Part shown: piece by piece, positions 3,277-49,474 of the stretch | Layout of the letters: every line of letters starts with the position of its first letter | Numbering within the stretch: the first letter of the stretch is position 1 | Origin: Turicibacter sanguinis | Lineage (GTDB): Bacteria > Bacillota_I > Bacilli_A > MOL361 > Turicibacteraceae | NCBI RefSeq assembly: GCF_013046825.1 | Contig: NZ_CP053187.1 | Location: 1,477,501 to 1,541,500, forward strand | DNA: 64,000 nt | Reading direction: 5' to 3' | The notes under the pieces: generated by a model | What the model was told of the DNA's origin: nothing | Seen by the model: only the letters and a program-made list of their open reading frames with translations | The model's database searches: none | Made by a program: the position numbers and the translations under genes

Positions 3277-4755
3277 ATGGCTAACCAAATTCATGATTTA
3301 AGGAGTGCTATTGAATTTTTAAAACAACATGAAAATCAAATCGTTTATACAAATTCAGAAGTTGATTGCGAAGCTGAAATTTCGGAGATTTACCGTTATG
3401 TTGGAGCGGGAGGAACAGTTATGCGTCCAACTAAAATCGGTCCAGCTATGTTATTTAATCATGTAAAAGATTATGAACATTCAAAAGTGTTAATCGGTTT
3501 ATTCGCATCTCGCGAACGCGTCGGATTAATGCTCGGTTGTGAGCCTGATCGTCTTGGATTTTTATTAAATGATGCTTTAAATCATCCAGTTGATCCTATT
3601 GAAATTCCACAAGCAAAGGCAAAGTGTCAGGAAGTCGTTCATTTATCAACAGATGAAGGATTTGATATCCGAAAAATCTTACCGGCACCCAAAAATACAC
3701 TAGAAGATGCAGGCCCTTATATTACGATGGGACTCTGTTATGCAAGTGATCCAGATACGAAAGCTGGAGATATTACGATTCATCGCTTGTGCTTACAATC
3801 TAAGGATGAATTAACAATGTTTTTTACGCCTGGTGTTCGTCATATTGACGCGTTTAGAAAGAAAGCTGAGGGAAATCAAAATAATTTACCTATTTCAATT
3901 AGTATTGGAGTCGATCCAGCAATTTATGTAACTTCTTGTTTTGAACCGCCTGCTACTCCTCTTGGATTCAATGAATTAAGTATTGCAGGTGGCCTTCGAG
4001 GGAAACCAGTTGAATTGACAAAGTGTTTAACAATCGATGAAATGGCAATTGCAAATGCTGAGTATGTGATTGAAGGTGAACTTGTTTTCGGTCAACGTAT
4101 GCGTGAAGATATTAATACGAATACTGGAAAAGCAATGCCTGAGTTCCCTGGCTATACGGGCGTTGCGGATCAAGCTTTACCTGTGATTAAAGTGAAGGCC
4201 ATTACTCATCGAAAAAATCCAATCATGCAAACATGTATTGGCCCAAGTGAGGAACATGTAAATTTAGCAGGGATTCCTACTGAAGCTAGCATCTTAAATA
4301 TGGTAGAACGTGCTATGCCAGGGCGTGTTTTAAATGTATACGCACATTCATCAGGTGGAGGAAAATATTTAGCAATCTTACAATTCAAAAAATCAATTCC
4401 AAGTGATGAGGGAAGACAACGTCAGGCTGCCTTAGTAGCATTCTCTGCCTTTCCAGAGTTAAAACATGTTATCTTAGTCGATGAAGATGTGGATATCTTT
4501 GATTCAAATGATGTTTTATGGGCATTAACAACTAGATATCAAGGTGATTTAGATACTGTTTTTATTCCAGGTGTTCGTTGTCATCCACTCGATCCATCTT
4601 CATCTAATTTATATCATCCAAGCATTTTGAGTACAGGGATTGCTTGCAAAACCATTTATGATTGTACCGTACCATTTATACAAAAAGAGCGATTTAAACG
4701 TTCAAGTTTTAAAGAAGTTAACTTATCAGATTATGATATTAAGCCGTTAAAATAA
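3277..4755 (+). CDS. lpdC: UbiD-family nonoxidative decarboxylase, gallate decarboxylase (LpdC) type
   Basis: UbiD enzymes use prenylated FMN to add or remove CO2 on aromatic or unsaturated acids. This 492-residue copy matches what I recall of Lactobacillus plantarum LpdC across its length: YRYVGAGGTVMRPT near the start, EGFDIRKILPAPKNT, AGPYITMG, then REDINTNTGKAMPEFPGYTG, GPSEEHVNLAGIPTEAS and VILVDEDVDIFDSNDV. Gallate or protocatechuate is therefore the best guess for substrate. The start at 3277 follows GGAG. An in-frame ATG at 3250 has no ribosome site. A small LpdD subunit and the UbiX-type flavin prenyltransferase needed for the cofactor are not in the window. It sits in an operon with an esterase and is divergent from LysR. 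Confidence 0.85.
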   Translation: MANQIHDLRSAIEFLKQHENQIVYTNSEVDCEAEISEIYRYVGAGGTVMRPTKIGPAMLFNHVKDYEHSKVLIGLFASRERVGLMLGCEPDRLGFLLNDALNHPVDPIEIPQAKAKCQEVVHLSTDEGFDIRKILPAPKNTLEDAGPYITMGLCYASDPDTKAGDITIHRLCLQSKDELTMFFTPGVRHIDAFRKKAEGNQNNLPISISIGVDPAIYVTSCFEPPATPLGFNELSIAGGLRGKPVELTKCLTIDEMAIANAEYVIEGELVFGQRMREDINTNTGKAMPEFPGYTGVADQALPVIKVKAITHRKNPIMQTCIGPSEEHVNLAGIPTEASILNMVERAMPGRVLNVYAHSSGGGKYLAILQFKKSIPSDEGRQRQAALVAFSAFPELKHVILVDEDVDIFDSNDVLWALTTRYQGDLDTVFIPGVRCHPLDPSSSNLYHPSILSTGIACKTIYDCTVPFIQKERFKRSSFKEVNLSDYDIKPLK

Positions 4756-4770
4756 GAGGGGGAATTTATA

Positions 4771-5676
4771 ATGACTAAACAAAAGCGTCCATTCAAAGAA
4801 AATTTATTAGACGTAACAAACATTGAGCCTAAATATTTGGATATTTCATATGCGACATTAAGTGAAAGACAAAAGCTAGATATCTATTTACCAAGTGTTG
4901 ATGAGGGGCCGTTCCCCGTTATTGTTCATATTCATGGTGGAGCATTCAAAATGGGAAATAAGCGTGATGAACAATTAACGAGTATTTTATTAGGGCTTAA
5001 ACGAGGATATGCTATTGTATCAGTTAATTACCGATTAAGCCAAGAAGCAAAGTTTCCAGCAGCGGTCGAGGATGTAAAAGCAGCTATTCGTTTTATTAAA
5101 GCAAATGCCAAAAAGTATCAGTTGAATCCGAATAAAATTGCAGTATGGGGTGGTTCTGCAGGTGGACATTTATCAGCAATGGTTGGAGTAACTTCACATC
5201 TAAGTCTATTTGAACATCCACAATTAGGGAATATAGAGCAATCATCGGCTGTTCAAGCAGTTGTAGATTGGTTTGGACCGATTAACTTTTTAACGATGGA
5301 TGAGCAGTTTAAAGAACTTGAGGTTAATACTAAATTAGGTATCACTTGTTCTATTAATTCACCAGAATCTGAGTATATTGGAACGTTAATTACAGAAGTA
5401 CCTGACTTAGTTCAAAAAAGTAATCCTGAAACTTACATTGATGCTTCTAATCCACCATTCTTTATTCAACACGGAACAGCAGATGGGAATATTCCATATC
5501 TTCAATCGGTGTATTTCTCAAATAAATTAAAAGAAGTGATAGGCGAAAATAAGGTCTACTTTGAATTACTTGAGGGAGCAGGACATGGAGATGGGGTCTT
5601 CTCAGACAAACTGTATTTTACAGCTTCAGAAAATTTAGAAAAAGTATTTGTATTTTTAGATTCAGTTTTAAAATAA
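4771..5676 (+). CDS. Alpha/beta-hydrolase esterase
   Basis: A 301-residue alpha/beta-hydrolase of the BD-FAE/acetyl-esterase type. It shows the oxyanion motif HIHGGAF (53-59), nucleophile elbow GGSAGG with Ser129, Asp238 in GTADGNIP and His272 in GAGHGDG, a complete catalytic triad. No signal peptide is visible, so it is cytoplasmic. It starts 15 bases after the decarboxylase with GAGGGGG as ribosome site, so the two are cotranscribed. This suggests it frees phenolic acids (for example from galloyl, hydroxybenzoyl or feruloyl esters) for decarboxylation. Ester specificity is an inference from context. Confidence 0.82.
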   Translation: MTKQKRPFKENLLDVTNIEPKYLDISYATLSERQKLDIYLPSVDEGPFPVIVHIHGGAFKMGNKRDEQLTSILLGLKRGYAIVSVNYRLSQEAKFPAAVEDVKAAIRFIKANAKKYQLNPNKIAVWGGSAGGHLSAMVGVTSHLSLFEHPQLGNIEQSSAVQAVVDWFGPINFLTMDEQFKELEVNTKLGITCSINSPESEYIGTLITEVPDLVQKSNPETYIDASNPPFFIQHGTADGNIPYLQSVYFSNKLKEVIGENKVYFELLEGAGHGDGVFSDKLYFTASENLEKVFVFLDSVLK

Positions 5677-5728
5677 AGTAACAGATATCCTTAGGAAAAA
5701 GTCCTTGGGAAACTAAATAAAAATTATG

Positions 5729-5764
5729 AAAGCAGAATGTGTGAATTTACATTCTGCTTTTTGT
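5729..5764 (+). terminator. Terminator after esterase gene
   Basis: Stem AAAGCAGAATGT / ACATTCTGCTTT with an 8-base loop and a short T run closes the decarboxylase-esterase operon. Confidence 0.8.
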
Positions 5765-5822
5765 TGTAAAACGCTATCATAAAATGTAAAATATAGGAAG
5801 GAAATGAAAGGAGAGAGAAGTT

Positions 5823-6311
5823 ATGAGTAAAATTTTTGACGGTAAATTAAAAAGAGTAGGGGGCGTTCGACATTCTGAATACAGTGAGTATTTAGAAAGA
5901 AAAAAGCATGGTGATTTTGTCGTAAAAGGTGGTGTCTTCACAGATAGTGAGCGTGCCTTTTATTCAAAGCTAGAATTAGTAACAGAAAGATTTCCACTTC
6001 GACCATTAGTGAAAGTAGCATTAAAAGATATATTTGATATTAAAGACAGCTTTCTGAATCATAATCAAATTCATTTAGAAAGATTAAAAAATTATTACAT
6101 TGATTTCTTAGTTTGTGATGAAGAAACAATGATCCCATTATTAGCAATCTTTTTAGGCAAACATAATTTAGATGAAATGAAATTTATCGAGGGATTATTC
6201 GAAGAATTCGAGATTAATATCGCTCATGTCGAAGAAAAAGAAGAATACAATGTAATTGAATTAATTCAAATAATGGAGTTAAATATTGATATGAAAAGTT
6301 TAATCAAGTAG
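5823..6311 (+). CDS. Unknown 162-residue cytoplasmic protein
   Basis: I do not recognise this family. The protein is soluble, charged and acidic toward its C terminus (HVEEKEEYNVIELIQIMELN), with no membrane segment or signal peptide. It has a good ribosome site (AAAGGAGAGAGAAG) and lies 11 bases upstream of the flavoprotein gene, so the two are probably translated from one message. It may be a partner of that oxidoreductase, but nothing in its sequence names a reaction. Confidence 0.7.
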   Translation: MSKIFDGKLKRVGGVRHSEYSEYLERKKHGDFVVKGGVFTDSERAFYSKLELVTERFPLRPLVKVALKDIFDIKDSFLNHNQIHLERLKNYYIDFLVCDEETMIPLLAIFLGKHNLDEMKFIEGLFEEFEINIAHVEEKEEYNVIELIQIMELNIDMKSLIK

Positions 6312-6322
6312 GTGAGATAAAG

Positions 6323-7780
6323 ATGAAGTATGATGTTATTGTAATTGGATCAGGACTTGGCGGATTAACATGTGCTTCTCATCTATCAGTACTTGGGTAC
6401 AAAGTCGCAGTGTTTGAACAACATTTTTTAGCAGGAGGATATGCGACAAATTTTAAGCGACATGGATATGAATTTGATGTTTCACTACATGGAATTGGTG
6501 GTTTACAACCAGGAGGAAATGTTTATAGTATTTTACAAGCATGTCACGTACTAGATAAAATAAAACCGATAAAAAATAAATTAGCTTATCAGGTTGAATG
6601 GAAAGGAAAGCTCATTGAAATTCCGAATGATTTAAAGAAATATCAAGAACTCTTGATTGAGTTGTTTAAAGAATATGAAAAAGAAATTATGAACTTATTT
6701 AAGGCGATTACACGGTTTGAAAATGGATTTAATCGATTCATTTTACAAAGTCATAAAGGAGTATTGAATAAAGTGCATCCTGATGCAGCGCTATCTATGA
6801 GTTGGTCGATGAAAACAACGGATGAAGTCATCAGAAAATACGTTAACGATGATGAATTTATACGCTTCTTCACGACTCTATGGTCGTACTATGGGTTGCC
6901 CCCTAAGCAACTTAGTGCCATTTATTTTTTCATTCCATGGGTTAGCTATCACCATCATGGAAAGTTTTATATTCAGGGTGGCGGTGGAAAACTATCAAAT
7001 GCTTTTGTAGACGTTATTCATGAGCATGGAGGAAAAGTCTTCTTAAAATCAGAGGTAGTCGAAATTACTTTAAAGCATCGACAAGCAAGTGGCATCAAGT
7101 TGAAAGATGGAACGCAGTATGAAGCTGATATCATTGTTTCAAATGTTAATCCGATCACGTTAAGTACTTTATTACCGACTAATCATTTGAAAATAAAACC
7201 TCAAGAAATCGGATGCAGTTTAAGTCAACTTTACTTAGTCTTAGACTGCCATCCATCTAAGTTGAAAATTCCAGAAGAGGAAGTTTTCTTCTTAGGAGGA
7301 GACACACCTGAACAAGATTATGAAATAACCTTAAATCAACAATTTGATACATGTGGATTTTTGTTGACGAATTATGGTTCAATTGATTCAAATTTCGAAG
7401 GAATCTTGACTATGACGTATTTAGATAATTATGAGAGGTGGCCAAGCGAAAAAACACAATATAAGTTGAAAAAAGAAGAAGTTACTCAAATGATGTTAGC
7501 AAGGTTAGAAAAAATGTATCCTGGCATCACATCTCATATCGTGGTTAAGGAATTAGGAACGCCTAAAACGATGGAGCGATACACTAAAAATCCTAAAGGT
7601 GCTGTTTATGGATATGCCCAAACAGTGAAACAATCAGGAAGATATAGATTGAAAAATCAAACAAATATTTCAAATTTATTTATGAGTAGTGCTTGGAATA
7701 ATCCAGGTGGTGGTTATGAAGGTGTTATTTCCTCGGGAATAATGACGGCTAGACGAATTCATTTAATGAATTATAAATAA
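6323..7780 (+). CDS. FAD-dependent oxidoreductase of the CrtI / retinol-saturase type
   Basis: A 485-residue flavoprotein. The N-terminal dinucleotide fold is clear (VIVIGSGLGGLTCASHLS, then a Glu at the end of strand two in VFEQHF, and AGGYATNFKRHGYEFDVS). The C terminus has the phytoene-desaturase signature NLFMSSAWNNPGGGYEGVISSG. These enzymes desaturate or saturate long conjugated lipids such as carotenoids or retinol. There is no phytoene synthase or other carotenoid gene nearby, so a true carotenoid role is doubtful and saturation of a dietary polyene is equally possible. It follows the unknown 162-residue gene by 11 bases. Confidence 0.82.
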   Translation: MKYDVIVIGSGLGGLTCASHLSVLGYKVAVFEQHFLAGGYATNFKRHGYEFDVSLHGIGGLQPGGNVYSILQACHVLDKIKPIKNKLAYQVEWKGKLIEIPNDLKKYQELLIELFKEYEKEIMNLFKAITRFENGFNRFILQSHKGVLNKVHPDAALSMSWSMKTTDEVIRKYVNDDEFIRFFTTLWSYYGLPPKQLSAIYFFIPWVSYHHHGKFYIQGGGGKLSNAFVDVIHEHGGKVFLKSEVVEITLKHRQASGIKLKDGTQYEADIIVSNVNPITLSTLLPTNHLKIKPQEIGCSLSQLYLVLDCHPSKLKIPEEEVFFLGGDTPEQDYEITLNQQFDTCGFLLTNYGSIDSNFEGILTMTYLDNYERWPSEKTQYKLKKEEVTQMMLARLEKMYPGITSHIVVKELGTPKTMERYTKNPKGAVYGYAQTVKQSGRYRLKNQTNISNLFMSSAWNNPGGGYEGVISSGIMTARRIHLMNYK

Positions 7781-7845: not shown

Positions 7846-8634
7846 ATGAGGCATTTTTTGGGGGATTATACGTATCGATTTTACCTTGTGGTTTTAAAGT
7901 TAGTTTTAACAATTGTCCCAACAATTTCGATTGTTTTAGTCGTTCTAAATCTATTTTTCTATCAAAATGATTATCAGGTTAATTCGATTCAATTTTTTTC
8001 AATGATTTTACTTGCTATTCTTAGAAATTGGATTAGTGTTGTTATTTCATGTATTTTTTGGGTTAGTGCAGTCTTTGTTTTATTGAAGATATGTCATGTT
8101 GAAATAGGTGAAGAGAAAATTGAATCACTAGAACATCTTTTTAAACGTTCGAAAACGTCAAGTTCAATTTCAATGATTGAAACGATTTTAGAAATGTTAG
8201 GGATTATCTTTTTAGTTTGGCTTCTTTATTTTAACCCTGAGTATATTTCAAGCTATAGTATAAAGGACAATCGCTTGATTCCATTAACTCCCTTATTTAA
8301 TAGTAGTGTATTAATTTTTTATCATCCCATGATCATAGCTGTTTATAGCGTTGGTTTTATTTTATCAATTGGAAAATTATTGATAAGAAGATGGTCGCTT
8401 GGTTTAGCTATTTTACATTTTGTTTATAAAGCAGGAGTTTGTCTGCTGCTTTGCTTCATTATAATGAATCAATCAGTTTTTAATCCCGAATTTTTTGAGG
8501 AAATCTTTATTTATCCTCCTCAAAAAATCATGCTTTACTTTGACATATTCAGCAATGTTATTATAGCAATCATTATCGGGATTACTTTTTTTGATGTGAT
8601 AAGACCATTCTCAAAAGTTATTAAAGAAATCTAG
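7846..8634 (+). CDS. Unknown multi-pass membrane protein
   Basis: A 262-residue very hydrophobic protein with about six membrane helices (around 17-38, 47-75, 105-128, 150-172, 180-208 and 230-250). I cannot assign it to a family. Start is supported by TAGGAGGGGATTTT. Its stop codon overlaps the ribosome site of the leader peptide upstream of the MATE gene, so it may share a message with that efflux pump and could be a co-exporter or sensor. That is only context. Confidence 0.65.
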   Translation: MRHFLGDYTYRFYLVVLKLVLTIVPTISIVLVVLNLFFYQNDYQVNSIQFFSMILLAILRNWISVVISCIFWVSAVFVLLKICHVEIGEEKIESLEHLFKRSKTSSSISMIETILEMLGIIFLVWLLYFNPEYISSYSIKDNRLIPLTPLFNSSVLIFYHPMIIAVYSVGFILSIGKLLIRRWSLGLAILHFVYKAGVCLLLCFIIMNQSVFNPEFFEEIFIYPPQKIMLYFDIFSNVIIAIIIGITFFDVIRPFSKVIKEI

Positions 8635-8645
8635 GAGGCGGATTT

Positions 8646-8678
8646 ATGTTGCTGGATGGATTATCCCTTCTTTTCTAA
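8646..8678 (+). CDS. Leader peptide MLLDGLSLLF upstream of MATE gene
   Basis: A ten-codon reading frame with a perfect AGGAGG site at 8633-8638, seven bases before the ATG. Its last four sense codons form the 5' arm of a 12-base-pair hairpin whose other arm holds the MATE gene's ribosome site. This is the layout of a translational attenuator, as in erm and cat leaders: a ribosome stalled in the leader would open the hairpin. The gene is too short for homology and its translation is inferred from the ribosome site. Confidence 0.6.
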   Translation: MLLDGLSLLF

Positions 8679-8698
8679 AATTTTAAAGAAAAGAAGGG
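8665..8698 (+). promoter_or_regulatory. Hairpin hiding the MATE ribosome-binding site
   Basis: CCCTTCTTTTCT (8665-8676) pairs perfectly with AGAAAAGAAGGG (8687-8698) around a 10-base AT loop. The 3' arm contains the AAGGGG ribosome site (8694-8699) of the TTG-started MATE gene at 8706. No T run follows, so it is not a transcription terminator. Confidence 0.7.
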
Positions 8699-8705
8699 GA
8701 CTTAT

Positions 8706-9971
8706 TTGAAAGATAAATTGAATCAATTAGCAATTCCATTAATGTTAAATAATGTGTTAGGCCTATTAATTGGACTTTGTGATCAGGCAATGATTGGACA
8801 TGTTTCAATAACAGGGTTTGCAGCTGTTGGAATTGTAGCAGGAATTATTAATAGTTTATCTGGTGTGTTAGGGAGCATATCTATCACTTTTAATATTTTA
8901 GGGGCTCGTGCGAAAGGTGTTGAGGATGATGAATTATTGGAATCATATTACCAAATTCATCTGATACAAAGTTTAATGATTGGCCTCATCTTTACTAGTT
9001 TTGTTTTTCTTTTTGGAAGACCTATTCTTCAAATTGTTTATCAACTAGAAGGAAAAGTATTAGATGAAGCCATGAGTTATGCCTTTATTTTTAGCATGAC
9101 ACTTGGATTAAACTTACTTCTATTTACGGGTTCAGCCTATTTTAAAATAATGAATCAAACAAAGTATATTTTAATTAGTAACTTAACAGCGGCTATTTTA
9201 AATGTTATCTTTGATTATATTTTAATTTTTGGTTTGTTTGGATTGAAGCCACTTGGGATTATTGGAAATGCGATGGGTTCTGTATTAGCACTTCTTGTTA
9301 ATCTATGTATCTATTTCTTTGTTTTAAAAATGAGAATACGTAAGAAACCTAAGGCGCTAAATTTAGAACATCTTAAGTGTTCATTAAAATTATCCATGCC
9401 ATTAATGATTCAAGAATTCCTTGAAAGTACGGTTATTGTGCTAATTATAGGGGCATTAGTTGCCAGAATTGGATTACTTGAAGTGGCGGTTTATCAGCTA
9501 TTGACGATGATTATTGAGATTACATTGATGCCTACGTATGCGTATGGGCAAGGAGTATTGACCCTCATTGGAGAAGGGATAGAAAATTCGTCTAAAATTT
9601 TGTATCAGGGAATTATAAGGGCGCTTCTTTTTTACTTTATTTTCGCTACTTGTTTTATGATAAATCGTGAATCATTATTAGGGTTTATCACAAATCAGTC
9701 TGTGATGATTGAGACAGCAAGTAGCTACTTACCGTTTGTATACCTCATCTCAGTTTTATTCATTCCAATGACGTTGTATAAATTTAAATTACAAGCCATT
9801 GGTTCCACGAAAAGAGTCATTGCTGATACTTTAATTAGTTATAGTATAGGTCTTTTAGTTGCATTTTTATTGGGTTTAATTACTCAACGATTACTTAGTA
9901 TTTATATTGGACTAGGGAGTGCCTATTGTATTTGTCTATTTCTATTTAGAAGCCATTCGTTTAAAGTTTAA
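8706..9971 (+). CDS. MATE-family efflux transporter
   Basis: A 421-residue, roughly 12-helix exporter of the MATE family. The N terminus has LNQLAIPLMLNNVLGLLIGLCDQAMIG and the second repeat starts near residue 225 with KLSMPLMIQEFLESTV. MATE pumps expel cationic drugs, antibiotics or metabolites in exchange for Na+ or H+. The start is a TTG at 8706 with AAGGGG six bases upstream, and that site is locked in a hairpin preceded by a tiny leader frame, pointing to inducible translation by a ribosome-stalling compound. The cargo cannot be deduced. Confidence 0.85.
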   Translation: MKDKLNQLAIPLMLNNVLGLLIGLCDQAMIGHVSITGFAAVGIVAGIINSLSGVLGSISITFNILGARAKGVEDDELLESYYQIHLIQSLMIGLIFTSFVFLFGRPILQIVYQLEGKVLDEAMSYAFIFSMTLGLNLLLFTGSAYFKIMNQTKYILISNLTAAILNVIFDYILIFGLFGLKPLGIIGNAMGSVLALLVNLCIYFFVLKMRIRKKPKALNLEHLKCSLKLSMPLMIQEFLESTVIVLIIGALVARIGLLEVAVYQLLTMIIEITLMPTYAYGQGVLTLIGEGIENSSKILYQGIIRALLFYFIFATCFMINRESLLGFITNQSVMIETASSYLPFVYLISVLFIPMTLYKFKLQAIGSTKRVIADTLISYSIGLLVAFLLGLITQRLLSIYIGLGSAYCICLFLFRSHSFKV

Positions 9972-34149: not shown

Positions 34150-35526
34150 ATGAGTAAAAAAGTTTTAGTAATGAACAATCCGATGGAAGAGAGTAGGGCA
34201 TTTCCATTGATTATGAAATATTCAACTCCTGCTATTATTGCTTTATTAATTAGTGCAATCTACAACATTGTAGATCGAATGTTTGTTGGAAATTATGTAG
34301 GGGATATTGGGTTAGCGGCATTATCTATTTGTTTCCCTATTACTTTTATTGTAATGGGATTTGCTCTTTTAGTCAGTGCTGGAGGTGGAACTTTATTTGC
34401 TTTAAACCTAGGTGAAAAAGATATAGAGAATTCAAATCGAGCATTTGCAAACTCGTTTTTATACATTATTGGATTAGAGTTAGTAGTAACACTTGTTTTA
34501 TGGATAGTAGGCGATTCCTTTTTAAAGGTTTTAGGAGCAAGTGAGGTTGTTTTACCGGTTGCTAAACAATACTATTTTATAATGCTAGTAGGAAGTGTAT
34601 TTCAAGGATTAACCTTTGTTTTTAATGATTTTACACGTGTGTCAGGAAAAGTAAATCTTGCATTGATTATTTCAGCTAGTGGAGCCATTGTAAATATTGT
34701 GCTTGATGCTTGGTTTATTATAGGACTCGGATGGGGTGTAGAAGGGGCGGCACTTGCGACTGTTTTAGGACAAGTTGTTTCTGCGTTAATCGGATTTTAC
34801 ATTGTGTTTGGTGGTCATACTGTTATAAAAATAAAGAAAGATTATTTCAAAATTCAACTATCTATTATTCAAAAAATTTCAAAATTAGGTGTCTCATTGT
34901 TTATTGCTCAAATTGCGTTTGGATTTATTAGTTTAATCTATAATGTTTACTTAGGAAAATACGGTGGAGATCTTGCGATTTCTGTGTATGCTATTATTTC
35001 AAGTATTATGACCTTTGTTATTATGCCGGCTAGTGGATTAAGTCAAGGATTACAACCTATTTTAGGTTATTGTTATGGTTCTAAAAACTATGAGCGAGTG
35101 ATGGAGATGATGAAAGTTGGATGTTTCATTTCTACTGCCATAACAACAGTGATTTGGGCTTTAGTTCAACTTTTCCCTAGTCAATTAGTGTATTTATTTG
35201 GTGGTGCAAATAATCAAGACTTGATGGAGTTAGGAGTCACTGCTTTACGAATTAATTTTAGTTTCATCCCTATTGTAGGATTTGTTATGTTGTGTATTAC
35301 TTTTTTCCAAGCGATTGGGCATGCCAGACCTTCAATTTTATTGACCTTAATTCGTCAAGTGCTAGCTTTAGTACCTTTTATTATAGGATTACCGATGTTA
35401 ATAGGTGTTAAGGGCATTTTCTTTGCGCAACCAGCAAGTGATTTAATTACATTATTAGTTTCCATTTGGTTATTAAAGAAATTCTTTAACCAGTTACGTC
35501 AAATGTCTCAAGAATCTTTAGGCTAA
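34150..35526 (+). CDS. MATE-family efflux transporter (MepA-like)
   Basis: A 458-residue MATE exporter with 12 predicted helices. The N-terminal YSTPAIIALLISAIYNIVDRMFVGNYVG segment is like MepA. Its pairing with an upstream MarR-type regulator is the MepR-MepA layout of Staphylococcus. It should expel cationic toxic compounds. Substrate is unknown. Confidence 0.87.
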   Translation: MSKKVLVMNNPMEESRAFPLIMKYSTPAIIALLISAIYNIVDRMFVGNYVGDIGLAALSICFPITFIVMGFALLVSAGGGTLFALNLGEKDIENSNRAFANSFLYIIGLELVVTLVLWIVGDSFLKVLGASEVVLPVAKQYYFIMLVGSVFQGLTFVFNDFTRVSGKVNLALIISASGAIVNIVLDAWFIIGLGWGVEGAALATVLGQVVSALIGFYIVFGGHTVIKIKKDYFKIQLSIIQKISKLGVSLFIAQIAFGFISLIYNVYLGKYGGDLAISVYAIISSIMTFVIMPASGLSQGLQPILGYCYGSKNYERVMEMMKVGCFISTAITTVIWALVQLFPSQLVYLFGGANNQDLMELGVTALRINFSFIPIVGFVMLCITFFQAIGHARPSILLTLIRQVLALVPFIIGLPMLIGVKGIFFAQPASDLITLLVSIWLLKKFFNQLRQMSQESLG

Positions 35527-41087: not shown

Positions 41088-41181
41088 AAAAAAAACCGGC
41101 TCATTTTAAAAAGCCGGTTGTACCAATATCTCGATATATTCCAGGTACCCATATACAGAATATATTTCATCGATTCTTAGG
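41088..41181 (-). ncRNA. Candidate minus-strand small RNA
   Basis: On the minus strand a near-consensus promoter (TTGTCA at 41209-41214, 17 bases, TATAAT at 41186-41191) leads, after about 65 bases, to a strong terminator AACCGGC / GCCGGTT followed by eight T (41088-41119). Between them is a hairpin with arms GUACC/GGUAC and AAUAU/AUAUU. The transcript would be about 90 bases and contains no reading frame with a ribosome site. Confidence 0.6.
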
Positions 41182-41185
41182 CAGA

Positions 41186-41214
41186 ATTATAACATATTCC
41201 TCATATGTTGACAA
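41186..41214 (-). promoter_or_regulatory. Promoter of candidate small RNA
   Basis: TTGTCA-N17-TATAAT read on the minus strand, the best-spaced promoter in this gap. Confidence 0.7.
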
Positions 41215-48115: not shown

Positions 48116-49474
48116 ATGACGGATATGACGAAAGGGAGTCCAATTAAGTTAATTTTGGCATTTATGATTCCGATTTTAATCGGAAATTTATTTCAACAAT
48201 TATACAGTATGGTGGATACAGCGATTGTTGGAAAGTTCGTGGGGGTTCAAGCCTTAGCAGCAGTTGGTGCAACAGGAGGATTAGTTTTTCTAATCTTAGG
48301 TTTTATTAATGGATTAACTCATGGTTTTTCAGTGATTATATCACAGCGATTTGGTTCTAATGATGAGGAAGGGGTAAAAAAGGCAACTGCAATGTCTATT
48401 TACCTGTCAGCTATCGCAACAGTCATTATCACCATTATTTGCATGATTTTTGCTAAGCCGTTATTACAAATTATGAATACGCCAGCTGATATTTTAGCTG
48501 ATGCGAATACCTATGTAAGTATTATTTTTGGTGGAATTATTGCCACTATTTCTTATAACTTATTAGCGTCGGTTTTACGTGCATTTGGAGATAGTAAAAC
48601 ACCACTTTATTTTTTAATCATTGCTTCCATTACAAATATCGTATTAGACCTAGTTTTAATTATTAACTTTAATATGGGAGTAGCGGGAGCAGCTGCTGCA
48701 ACGATTGCTTCTCAAGGATTATCAGCTTTTTTATGTTTCGTTTACATGAAGAAAAAATCGGATATCCTTACATTACAAAAGCACCACTTTAAATTGGATA
48801 GATTATTGGTTAAAGAACTTATGGCAGTTTCAATTCCAATGGCGTTACAATATTCAATTACAGCAGTTGGGGTTATGATTTTACAAGTGGCAATTAATAG
48901 TTTTGGATCAACAGTTGTTGGAGCCTTTACAGCGGCAACAAAAGTAGAGCAGTTAGTAATTCAACCATCTATTGCAATTGGAATGACGATGGCAACATTC
49001 TCAGCTCAAAATATCGGAGCGAGAGAGCTTGGACGTGTACGTCAAGGGGTTAAACAGGCTACAATTTTAACATTATGTGTAAATGTTGTGTCAGCTTTAA
49101 TTGTTGTCTTCTTTGGAACTTACTTTGTTGGATTCTTTGTTGAAACAGAAGGAACTGAAGTTTTAACTTATTCACAACAATATTTAAATACAGTGGCAAC
49201 CTTCTTCCCAATCTTAGGATTACTATTCTTATATCGTTTTACTTTACAAGGTCTTGGAAGCACAGTAGCACCTATGTTTGCGGGTGTAATGGAATTAATT
49301 ATGCGTACGGGTGTTGCTTTTACGTTGCCGGGATTAATCGGATATGCGGGCGTTTGTTTAGCAAGTCCATTTGCTTGGGTAGGTGCAACAGTCTGGCTCT
49401 TATATTCATATTTTAGAGTTATGCCACGTCTAAAATCAGAATTTTGTGAATTAAAACCAGAATTGCAGTTATAA
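48116..49474 (+). CDS. MATE-family efflux transporter
   Basis: A 452-residue MATE exporter with 12 helices (TKGSPIKLILAFMIPILIGNLFQQLYSMVDTAIVGKFVG at the start is split here by function: N-terminal amphipath, then helix 1). Residues 20-35 and 245-260 show the two repeats. It is the third MATE gene of the window. ATG 48116 is preferred because GGAGGAGAG precedes it. It lies directly downstream of the hairpin-rich repeats, which would be in its leader if transcribed together. Confidence 0.86.
   Translation: MTDMTKGSPIKLILAFMIPILIGNLFQQLYSMVDTAIVGKFVGVQALAAVGATGGLVFLILGFINGLTHGFSVIISQRFGSNDEEGVKKATAMSIYLSAIATVIITIICMIFAKPLLQIMNTPADILADANTYVSIIFGGIIATISYNLLASVLRAFGDSKTPLYFLIIASITNIVLDLVLIINFNMGVAGAAAATIASQGLSAFLCFVYMKKKSDILTLQKHHFKLDRLLVKELMAVSIPMALQYSITAVGVMILQVAINSFGSTVVGAFTAATKVEQLVIQPSIAIGMTMATFSAQNIGARELGRVRQGVKQATILTLCVNVVSALIVVFFGTYFVGFFVETEGTEVLTYSQQYLNTVATFFPILGLLFLYRFTLQGLGSTVAPMFAGVMELIMRTGVAFTLPGLIGYAGVCLASPFAWVGATVWLLYSYFRVMPRLKSEFCELKPELQL

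Follow-up and report, generated by a model that had tools for sequence, protein, structure and literature searches.

The element considered here lies in a 64,000-nucleotide stretch of Turicibacter sanguinis DNA (the window), between a gene for a membrane protein and a gene for a MATE efflux pump, in the following arrangement:

7846–8634, plus strand: gene for a 262-residue membrane protein of a family left unassigned by Pfam and NCBIfam
8633–8638, plus strand: AGGAGG, Shine–Dalgarno (SD) site of the putative leader, read from the sequence; an SD-like site precedes 15/15 leaders
8646–8678, plus strand: leader open reading frame, MLLDGLSLLF and stop, read from the sequence and kept in 15 loci
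8652–8657, plus strand: CTG-GAT, the conserved codon pair ([GCG/CTG]-NNT in 15/15 leaders) and predicted stall site
8664–8672, plus strand: TCC-CTT-CTT, the conserved [Ser/Thr/Ala]-Leu-Leu codons
8665–8676, plus strand: 5′ arm of the hairpin (anti-SD)
8687–8698, plus strand: 3′ arm of the hairpin, containing the pump SD
8694–8699, plus strand: AAGGGG, the sequestered SD of the MATE gene
8706–9971, plus strand: TTG-started MATE efflux gene, 421 residues, WgkD-like subfamily (Pfam MatE, 6e-28; NF052396, 1.4e-88, under its cut-off)

The pump matches PF01554 with 97.9 bits (gathering threshold, 24.9), while the 510-bit cut-off of NF052396, the WgkD equivalog, is reached neither by the window protein (297.7 bits) nor by ten relatives (251.8–427.2 bits). 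Its TTG start is supported by a relative from the same genus that has ATG at the matching place (GGGGACTTATATG). The neighbours between 3250 and 16468, some of them named from their sequence, are presumably a UbiD protein, an esterase-like protein, a DUF2726 protein, a desaturase-like FAD enzyme, a membrane protein, a two-component system and a copper-type cluster; a scan of these genes, small precursor genes apart, found no WgkD-type operon (precursor peptide, radical-SAM enzyme and RRE protein). The host genome contains 12 MATE matches in total, and two further ones fall in the window (approx. 34225–35394 and 48161–49327). Profile scans of the upstream membrane protein returned no Pfam and no NCBIfam match. 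Its gene adjoins the leader and the MATE gene in all four Turicibacter-like genomes with intact upstream DNA and is absent upstream of the clostridial leader loci described below. The leader SD overlaps its stop codon (TAG, 8632–8634), so that in this genus the element sits inside an apparent operon.

The sequence-only reading had proposed a ten-codon leader with its own AGGAGG site, and the frame does run from ATG at 8646, with a spacing of 7 nt, to TAA at 8676–8678. Its 3′ half had been taken for the 5′ arm of a perfect 12-bp hairpin whose other arm holds the ribosome site of the TTG-started MATE gene. The stem formed by 8665–8676 and 8687–8698 bears this out, being entirely Watson–Crick, with 5 G-C pairs and a 10-nt loop (hairpin, 8665–8698), and connecting the last leader codons with the MATE SD, AAGGGG being within the 3′ arm plus one base. 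The absence of a T run after the hairpin was also borne out, by the sequence and by a simple terminator scan that reports none here. When the 64-kb window was resampled 20 times with a first-order Markov model, no stem of 11 bp or more with 5 or more G-C pairs appeared; without regard to G-C pairs, the real window has 21 stems of 11 bp or longer, many resembling ordinary terminators, so that the stem alone is unremarkable. The 141 nt around it fold with an energy that is not exceptional either (z = −1.61, 14 of 200 shuffles being as good). The strong evidence for the element is its conservation, not its stability. At Rfam gathering thresholds nothing was matched at the leader or hairpin, the whole window yielding only a c-di-GMP-II riboswitch at 41103–41186 on the minus strand (62.3 bits).

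Homologues of the pump were sought in samples, not exhaustive, of 198, 398, 225 and 311 genomes. At E ≤ 1e-50 the pump was present in only five of the 198 genomes, all of the genus and including the window's own, the four other homologues being 43–46% identical to the window pump. Three of these relatives have intact upstream DNA, and their leaders (MNLLDELTLLF, MNVLDGLTLLF and MKNLSELTLLF) are followed by the same stem with loops of 9–10 nt; in the fourth (L016) a contig edge cuts the element, leaving its 3′ half, and this locus was left out of all leader counts. The same stem, with the leader MVHADGFALLF, was found in a clostridial metagenome-assembled genome (L017), and among 225 genomes of its order the pump family occurs at E ≤ 1e-70 in 16, its own included; two more genes, each without a leader, came from the wider samples (398 + 311 genomes). 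The 23 distinct loci thus comprise 12 with a complete one-hairpin element (type I), one with an edge-cut type I element, three with a two-hairpin element (type II) and seven leaderless ones. A type I leader and hairpin stand before each of the four other homologues of the genus (one edge-cut) and before eight clostridial homologues. One leaderless locus, L106, was found last and was examined separately, outside the tree and the scan for small frames.

That scan, for SD-preceded mini-ORFs in 21 loci, returned the leader in 15/15 leader loci; in the six leaderless loci it found no leader-like peptide and a few other mini-ORFs, one of 37 residues in L078. A covariance model built from seven type I elements recovered 5/5 held-out elements, with E values between 9e-7 and 1.6e-3; even at E up to 1 it matched no member of a set of seven leaderless relatives. 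Among 11 other MATE loci taken from the window's genome, no type I element was found at E < 0.2. Matches of model R1 away from MATE loci (plus strand, E 0.005 and above) and that at L067 were taken as chance, no MATE gene lying downstream of those inspected by eye, which were most of them, and minus-strand R1 matches at MATE loci are the palindrome read backwards. The neighbours of the clostridial leader loci differ, with none evidently common in the listed genes, and the leader is the common flanking feature. Spread by plasmids or phages was considered and set aside, since the window protein had no plasmid match at 1e-20, other queries gave only 22–27% identical MATE proteins in plasmids and phages, and the exact hairpin was not found in viral contigs. 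As judged from the aligned sequences, the putative leader and its SD have been kept, along with the hairpin and the masked pump SD, before diverged MATE genes, which is not chance. The SDs of the leaders at L073 and L075 match the complement of the 3′ end of 16S rRNA to an unusually complete extent (AGGAGGTGATCC), which suggests very strong leader initiation at these two loci.

The 15 complete leaders were aligned on the Ser/Thr/Ala codon as position 0, a register of our choosing, and follow, with few exceptions, the consensus [Ala/Leu]-x-x-x-[Ser/Thr/Ala]-Leu-Leu; as the leaders are related and the register chosen, the counts that follow are not independent trials. Position −4 is Ala (GCG) in eight and Leu (CTG) in seven, so that GCG or CTG occupies it in 15/15, against a background of 1.05% of 6356 pump-gene codons, and T is the last base of the −3 codon in 15/15 (background, 41%). 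At position 0 there are eight Ser, five Thr, one Ala and one Phe, and positions +1 and +2 are each Leu in 14/15; the exceptions, kept in the counts, are L076 (Phe at position 0), L074 (Pro-Leu) and L073 (Leu-Phe). We read the tree as showing at least three switches between GCG and CTG, each of which takes two base changes with the third-position G kept. RNA pairing was rejected as the cause of this codon choice, because folding revealed no pairing partner of the −4 codon common to the loci, and an internal out-of-frame start at ...GATGG... was rejected on inspection as not conserved. With Leu at five of ten positions in the window's leader, and a rare codon for Leu or Ala at the conserved place, the leader might sense a shortage of Leu-tRNA (or Ala-tRNA), as in amino-acid attenuation. 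This explanation is very improbable, as members of the family have either Leu or Ala at that residue, Leu is scarce in some of the peptides, and a MATE pump, not a biosynthetic gene, is the target.

In the helix, 98.5% of 130 alignment cells are paired, and five cells carry a double change from C-G to U-A. These two-sided changes affect just one of 11 base pairs, because the hairpin arms are nearly invariant, and the support for the helix from covariation is limited. The loop length varies among homologues (9–12 nt in the first five compared), which fits an RNA rather than a DNA operator, and the latter reading was rejected on this ground. The near-invariance of the arms, beyond the needs of pairing, would also be expected if the hairpin were the target of an RNA-binding protein or a small RNA and the reading frame incidental. 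However, frame, start, SD and stop are all kept in 15/15 loci, in-frame conservation extends to codons beyond the hairpin and the loop varies in length, so that we give such a target very little credence.

The type II elements (L081, L082 and L084) belong to more distant clostridial homologues, with the leaders MNYLYVFSLLEE, MNNLLVLSLLRE and MINADVISLLRE, respectively. A first hairpin lies inside the leader, its 5′ arm being the Ser-Leu-Leu codons (AGCCTATT/AATAGGCT), which read AGC-CTA-TTG here and TCC-CTT-CTT in the window, and a second hairpin masks the pump SD; by inspection, the GAAGAATAG-like end of the leader can alternatively pair with the 5′ arm of the second hairpin. Such competing hairpins are the layout known from erm, to which the two-hairpin plan may be likened. 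In three of 225 genomes the type II element was matched, always at MATE loci and never before non-MATE genes. In a tree of 25 proteins (L106 omitted), the pumps with type I leaders form one clade (90/81, the edge-cut locus included) and those with type II leaders another (100/99), with leaderless members between them, the leaderless group being weakly supported (68/25). Either one old leader and a loss, or two gains and convergence, would account for this topology; the peptide features shared by type I and type II leaders favour a single old leader, short of proof.

The leaderless members bear on the relation to modified peptides. The leaderless pump of L077 (neighbourhood L093) stands beside a putative radical-SAM gene, recognized by its cysteine motif only, as would be expected for a modified-peptide exporter. 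In L093, the interval 4563–7343 (in MATE orientation) holds this leaderless WgkD-like MATE gene after the putative radical-SAM gene and a gene for a 109-residue protein, and is likely a modified-peptide export cluster. At L079, whose MATE protein is the nearest to WgkD among ten scanned (427 bits), a short frame translated by eye (MLTLVKKDGAVKAQEVEPLGIAESVSYEKVN) lies just upstream of the leaderless gene and is possibly a precursor peptide. The WgkD family being associated with the modified peptide tryglysin, the leader mini-ORF might itself encode a very small secreted peptide (a signal or a precursor) that the pump exports, with the overlap of the hairpin secondary. We consider this extremely unlikely: the anti-SD arm fixes the 3′ half of the peptide, a motif check of up to three listed genes on each side found no radical-SAM cysteine motif near the leader-bearing genes, and the relative that does have a radical-SAM neighbour is leaderless.

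The consequences of leader translation were modelled by folding each transcript with a ribosome-sized mask at every leader codon. With no ribosome, the modelled pump SD is closed in 15/15 (probability of being unpaired, 0.00), and it stays closed with a ribosome at leader codons 1–2, which disfavours stalling at initiation of the pleuromutilin type. In type I elements, the modelled SD opens from codon −4 or −3 onward. With the ribosome at codon −4 and its front edge at +16, it is open (>0.05) in 12/12 type I elements, at 0.1 or below at the key codons in L013 and L068, and the corresponding type II values are 0.47 (L081), 0.63 (L082) and 0.05 (L084). L081 and L082 are predicted to open at about codons −4/−3 only (0.4–0.6) and to be closed later, while for L084 the modelled opening is 0.35 at codon 3 and just 0.05 at codons 4–5 (−4/−3). 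Setting the front edge between +14 and +18 nt moves the type II interval by approximately one codon, within −5 to −2; at +12 it moves to −3/−2, with −1 weaker. The positions predicted to open both architectures, strongly in two of the three type II elements, coincide with the conserved codon pair. Simple translational coupling, in which the hairpin would tie the pump to translation of the leader (and, in the genus, of the upstream operon) with no stalling and no inducer, would suit the overlap of the leader SD with the upstream stop codon and the several ribosome positions that open the type I hairpin in the model. However, the type II SD is modelled as open only for a ribosome at approximately codons 3–5 and as closed when it is at the stop, the conservation of GCG/CTG-NNT and of Ser/Thr/Ala-Leu-Leu would be left unexplained, and the clostridial loci do without the upstream gene of the genus; coupling of this kind is thus held to be unlikely.

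From the modelled folds, the probable stall site is at leader codons 3–4 (CTG-GAT in the window) and not at the C-terminal end. A stall at Ser/Thr/Ala-Leu-Leu, in a phenicol/oxazolidinone context, was tried as the main site and rejected: a ribosome there keeps the modelled type II pump SD closed, and pairing in type I mostly requires CC as the last two bases of the codon, so that Ser, Thr or Ala (or Pro) is partly forced. It is a possible second stall site. Phenicols and oxazolidinones prefer Ala, followed by Ser or Thr, as the penultimate residue (PMC8987054). Ala at position −4 (8/15) would suit these drugs, whereas Leu (7/15) would not. The candidate inducers are inhibitors whose action depends on context and which allow a few residues to be joined first (phenicols or oxazolidinones with penultimate Ala, macrolides and others), none of which is singled out, because Leu replaces Ala in approximately half of the family. 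We know of no single drug context that explains the Ala/Leu mix at the proposed stall residue.

The best reading of the element, which we regard as probable from the conserved sequences and the modelled folds, is that of a ribosome-stalling translational attenuator in front of a WgkD-like MATE pump. Without a ribosome, the hairpin would hide the pump SD. After synthesis of three to five residues, a ribosome with [GCG/CTG]-NNT in its P and A (or E and P) sites would cover the 5′ arm and free the SD. Ribosomes would normally pass, the hairpin re-forming and pump synthesis staying low, until a compound that slows or arrests early elongation in the peptide and codon context of the leader held a ribosome in place and thereby turned pump translation on; the pump would then export the inducing compound or a related one. 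The sequence-only reading had already placed the control at translation, and this is strongly supported, with frame, SD, hairpin and masked pump SD co-conserved and the modelled SD opening only when the ribosome is far enough in; we infer that a compound acting on the ribosome may induce the pump, as was also suggested there. A bolder version, which we put forward as doubtful, makes the sensor specific for both codon and peptide: arrest would occur when the P site holds GCG or CTG and the A site NNT, after three or four residues, through an early-elongation inhibitor class of unfamiliar context, the sensor having been kept while the switch was rebuilt between one hairpin and two. Since the pumps are orphan members of a family otherwise tied to a ribosomally made modified peptide (WgkD/tryglysin), the inducer may then be a ribosome-targeting peptide of a competitor and not a clinical drug.

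The parallel with erm and cat leaders, drawn from the outset, stood up to comparison, the one-hairpin type I being cat-like and type II erm-like, and the principle is a known one. In the cat-86 and ermC attenuators, as here, a short leader has its own SD, a hairpin covers the SD of the target gene and a stalled ribosome opens it (here in the model); the differences are the MATE pump as target and a different family of leader peptides. For cat and erm, dependence on the drug has been established (PMC4191407). The same source describes the leader-controlled multidrug transporter bmrB-bmrCD of Bacillus subtilis, with rare leader codons and induction by chloramphenicol, erythromycin and lincomycin (PMC4191407). 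The leader-linked multidrug transporter gene and the rare codons are points of likeness, but bmrB is a leader of 53 residues, the transporter is of the ABC type and a transcription terminator takes part, as opposed to 10–12 residues, a MATE pump and, in type I, no terminator. The upstream ORFs of ARE-ABCF genes in low-GC Gram-positives (VmlR, MIN; CplR, MR[I/M]; LsaA, MAGN) are very short antibiotic sensors and, for cplR, an SD-masking hairpin is combined with termination (PMC9226507, PMC10201436). These frames have three to four codons and are thought to stall at or near initiation, whereas here a ribosome at codons 1–2 leaves the modelled SD closed. In E. coli, the toiL-topAI system indicates that one upstream ORF can sense several classes of ribosome inhibitors by stalling at different codons (PMC12121999). 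It differs from the present element in its target gene and sequence, in belonging to a toxin–antitoxin transcript and in its link to Rho-dependent termination.

To our knowledge, no MATE pump has been described as being under leader-peptide attenuation. A search of an open-access collection, with few subscription journals and no preprints, found no MATE gene controlled by a leader peptide, an upstream ORF or attenuation, as judged from listings and from passages of PMC11109978, PMC8632094, PMC10201436 and PMC12121999. The element is best read as a new leader family working on a known principle, of the cat/erm type, before a new kind of pump. If this is true, MATE expression in gut commensals (Turicibacter-like) and in clostridia would be a direct read-out of ribosome stalling, and the element could serve directly as a reporter in the search for the substrates of these pumps. 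Conservation of the GCG/CTG-NNT pair points to sensing at the level of the codon as well as of the peptide, and the retention of the leader across two RNA architectures may illustrate how switches can be rebuilt around a fixed sensor.
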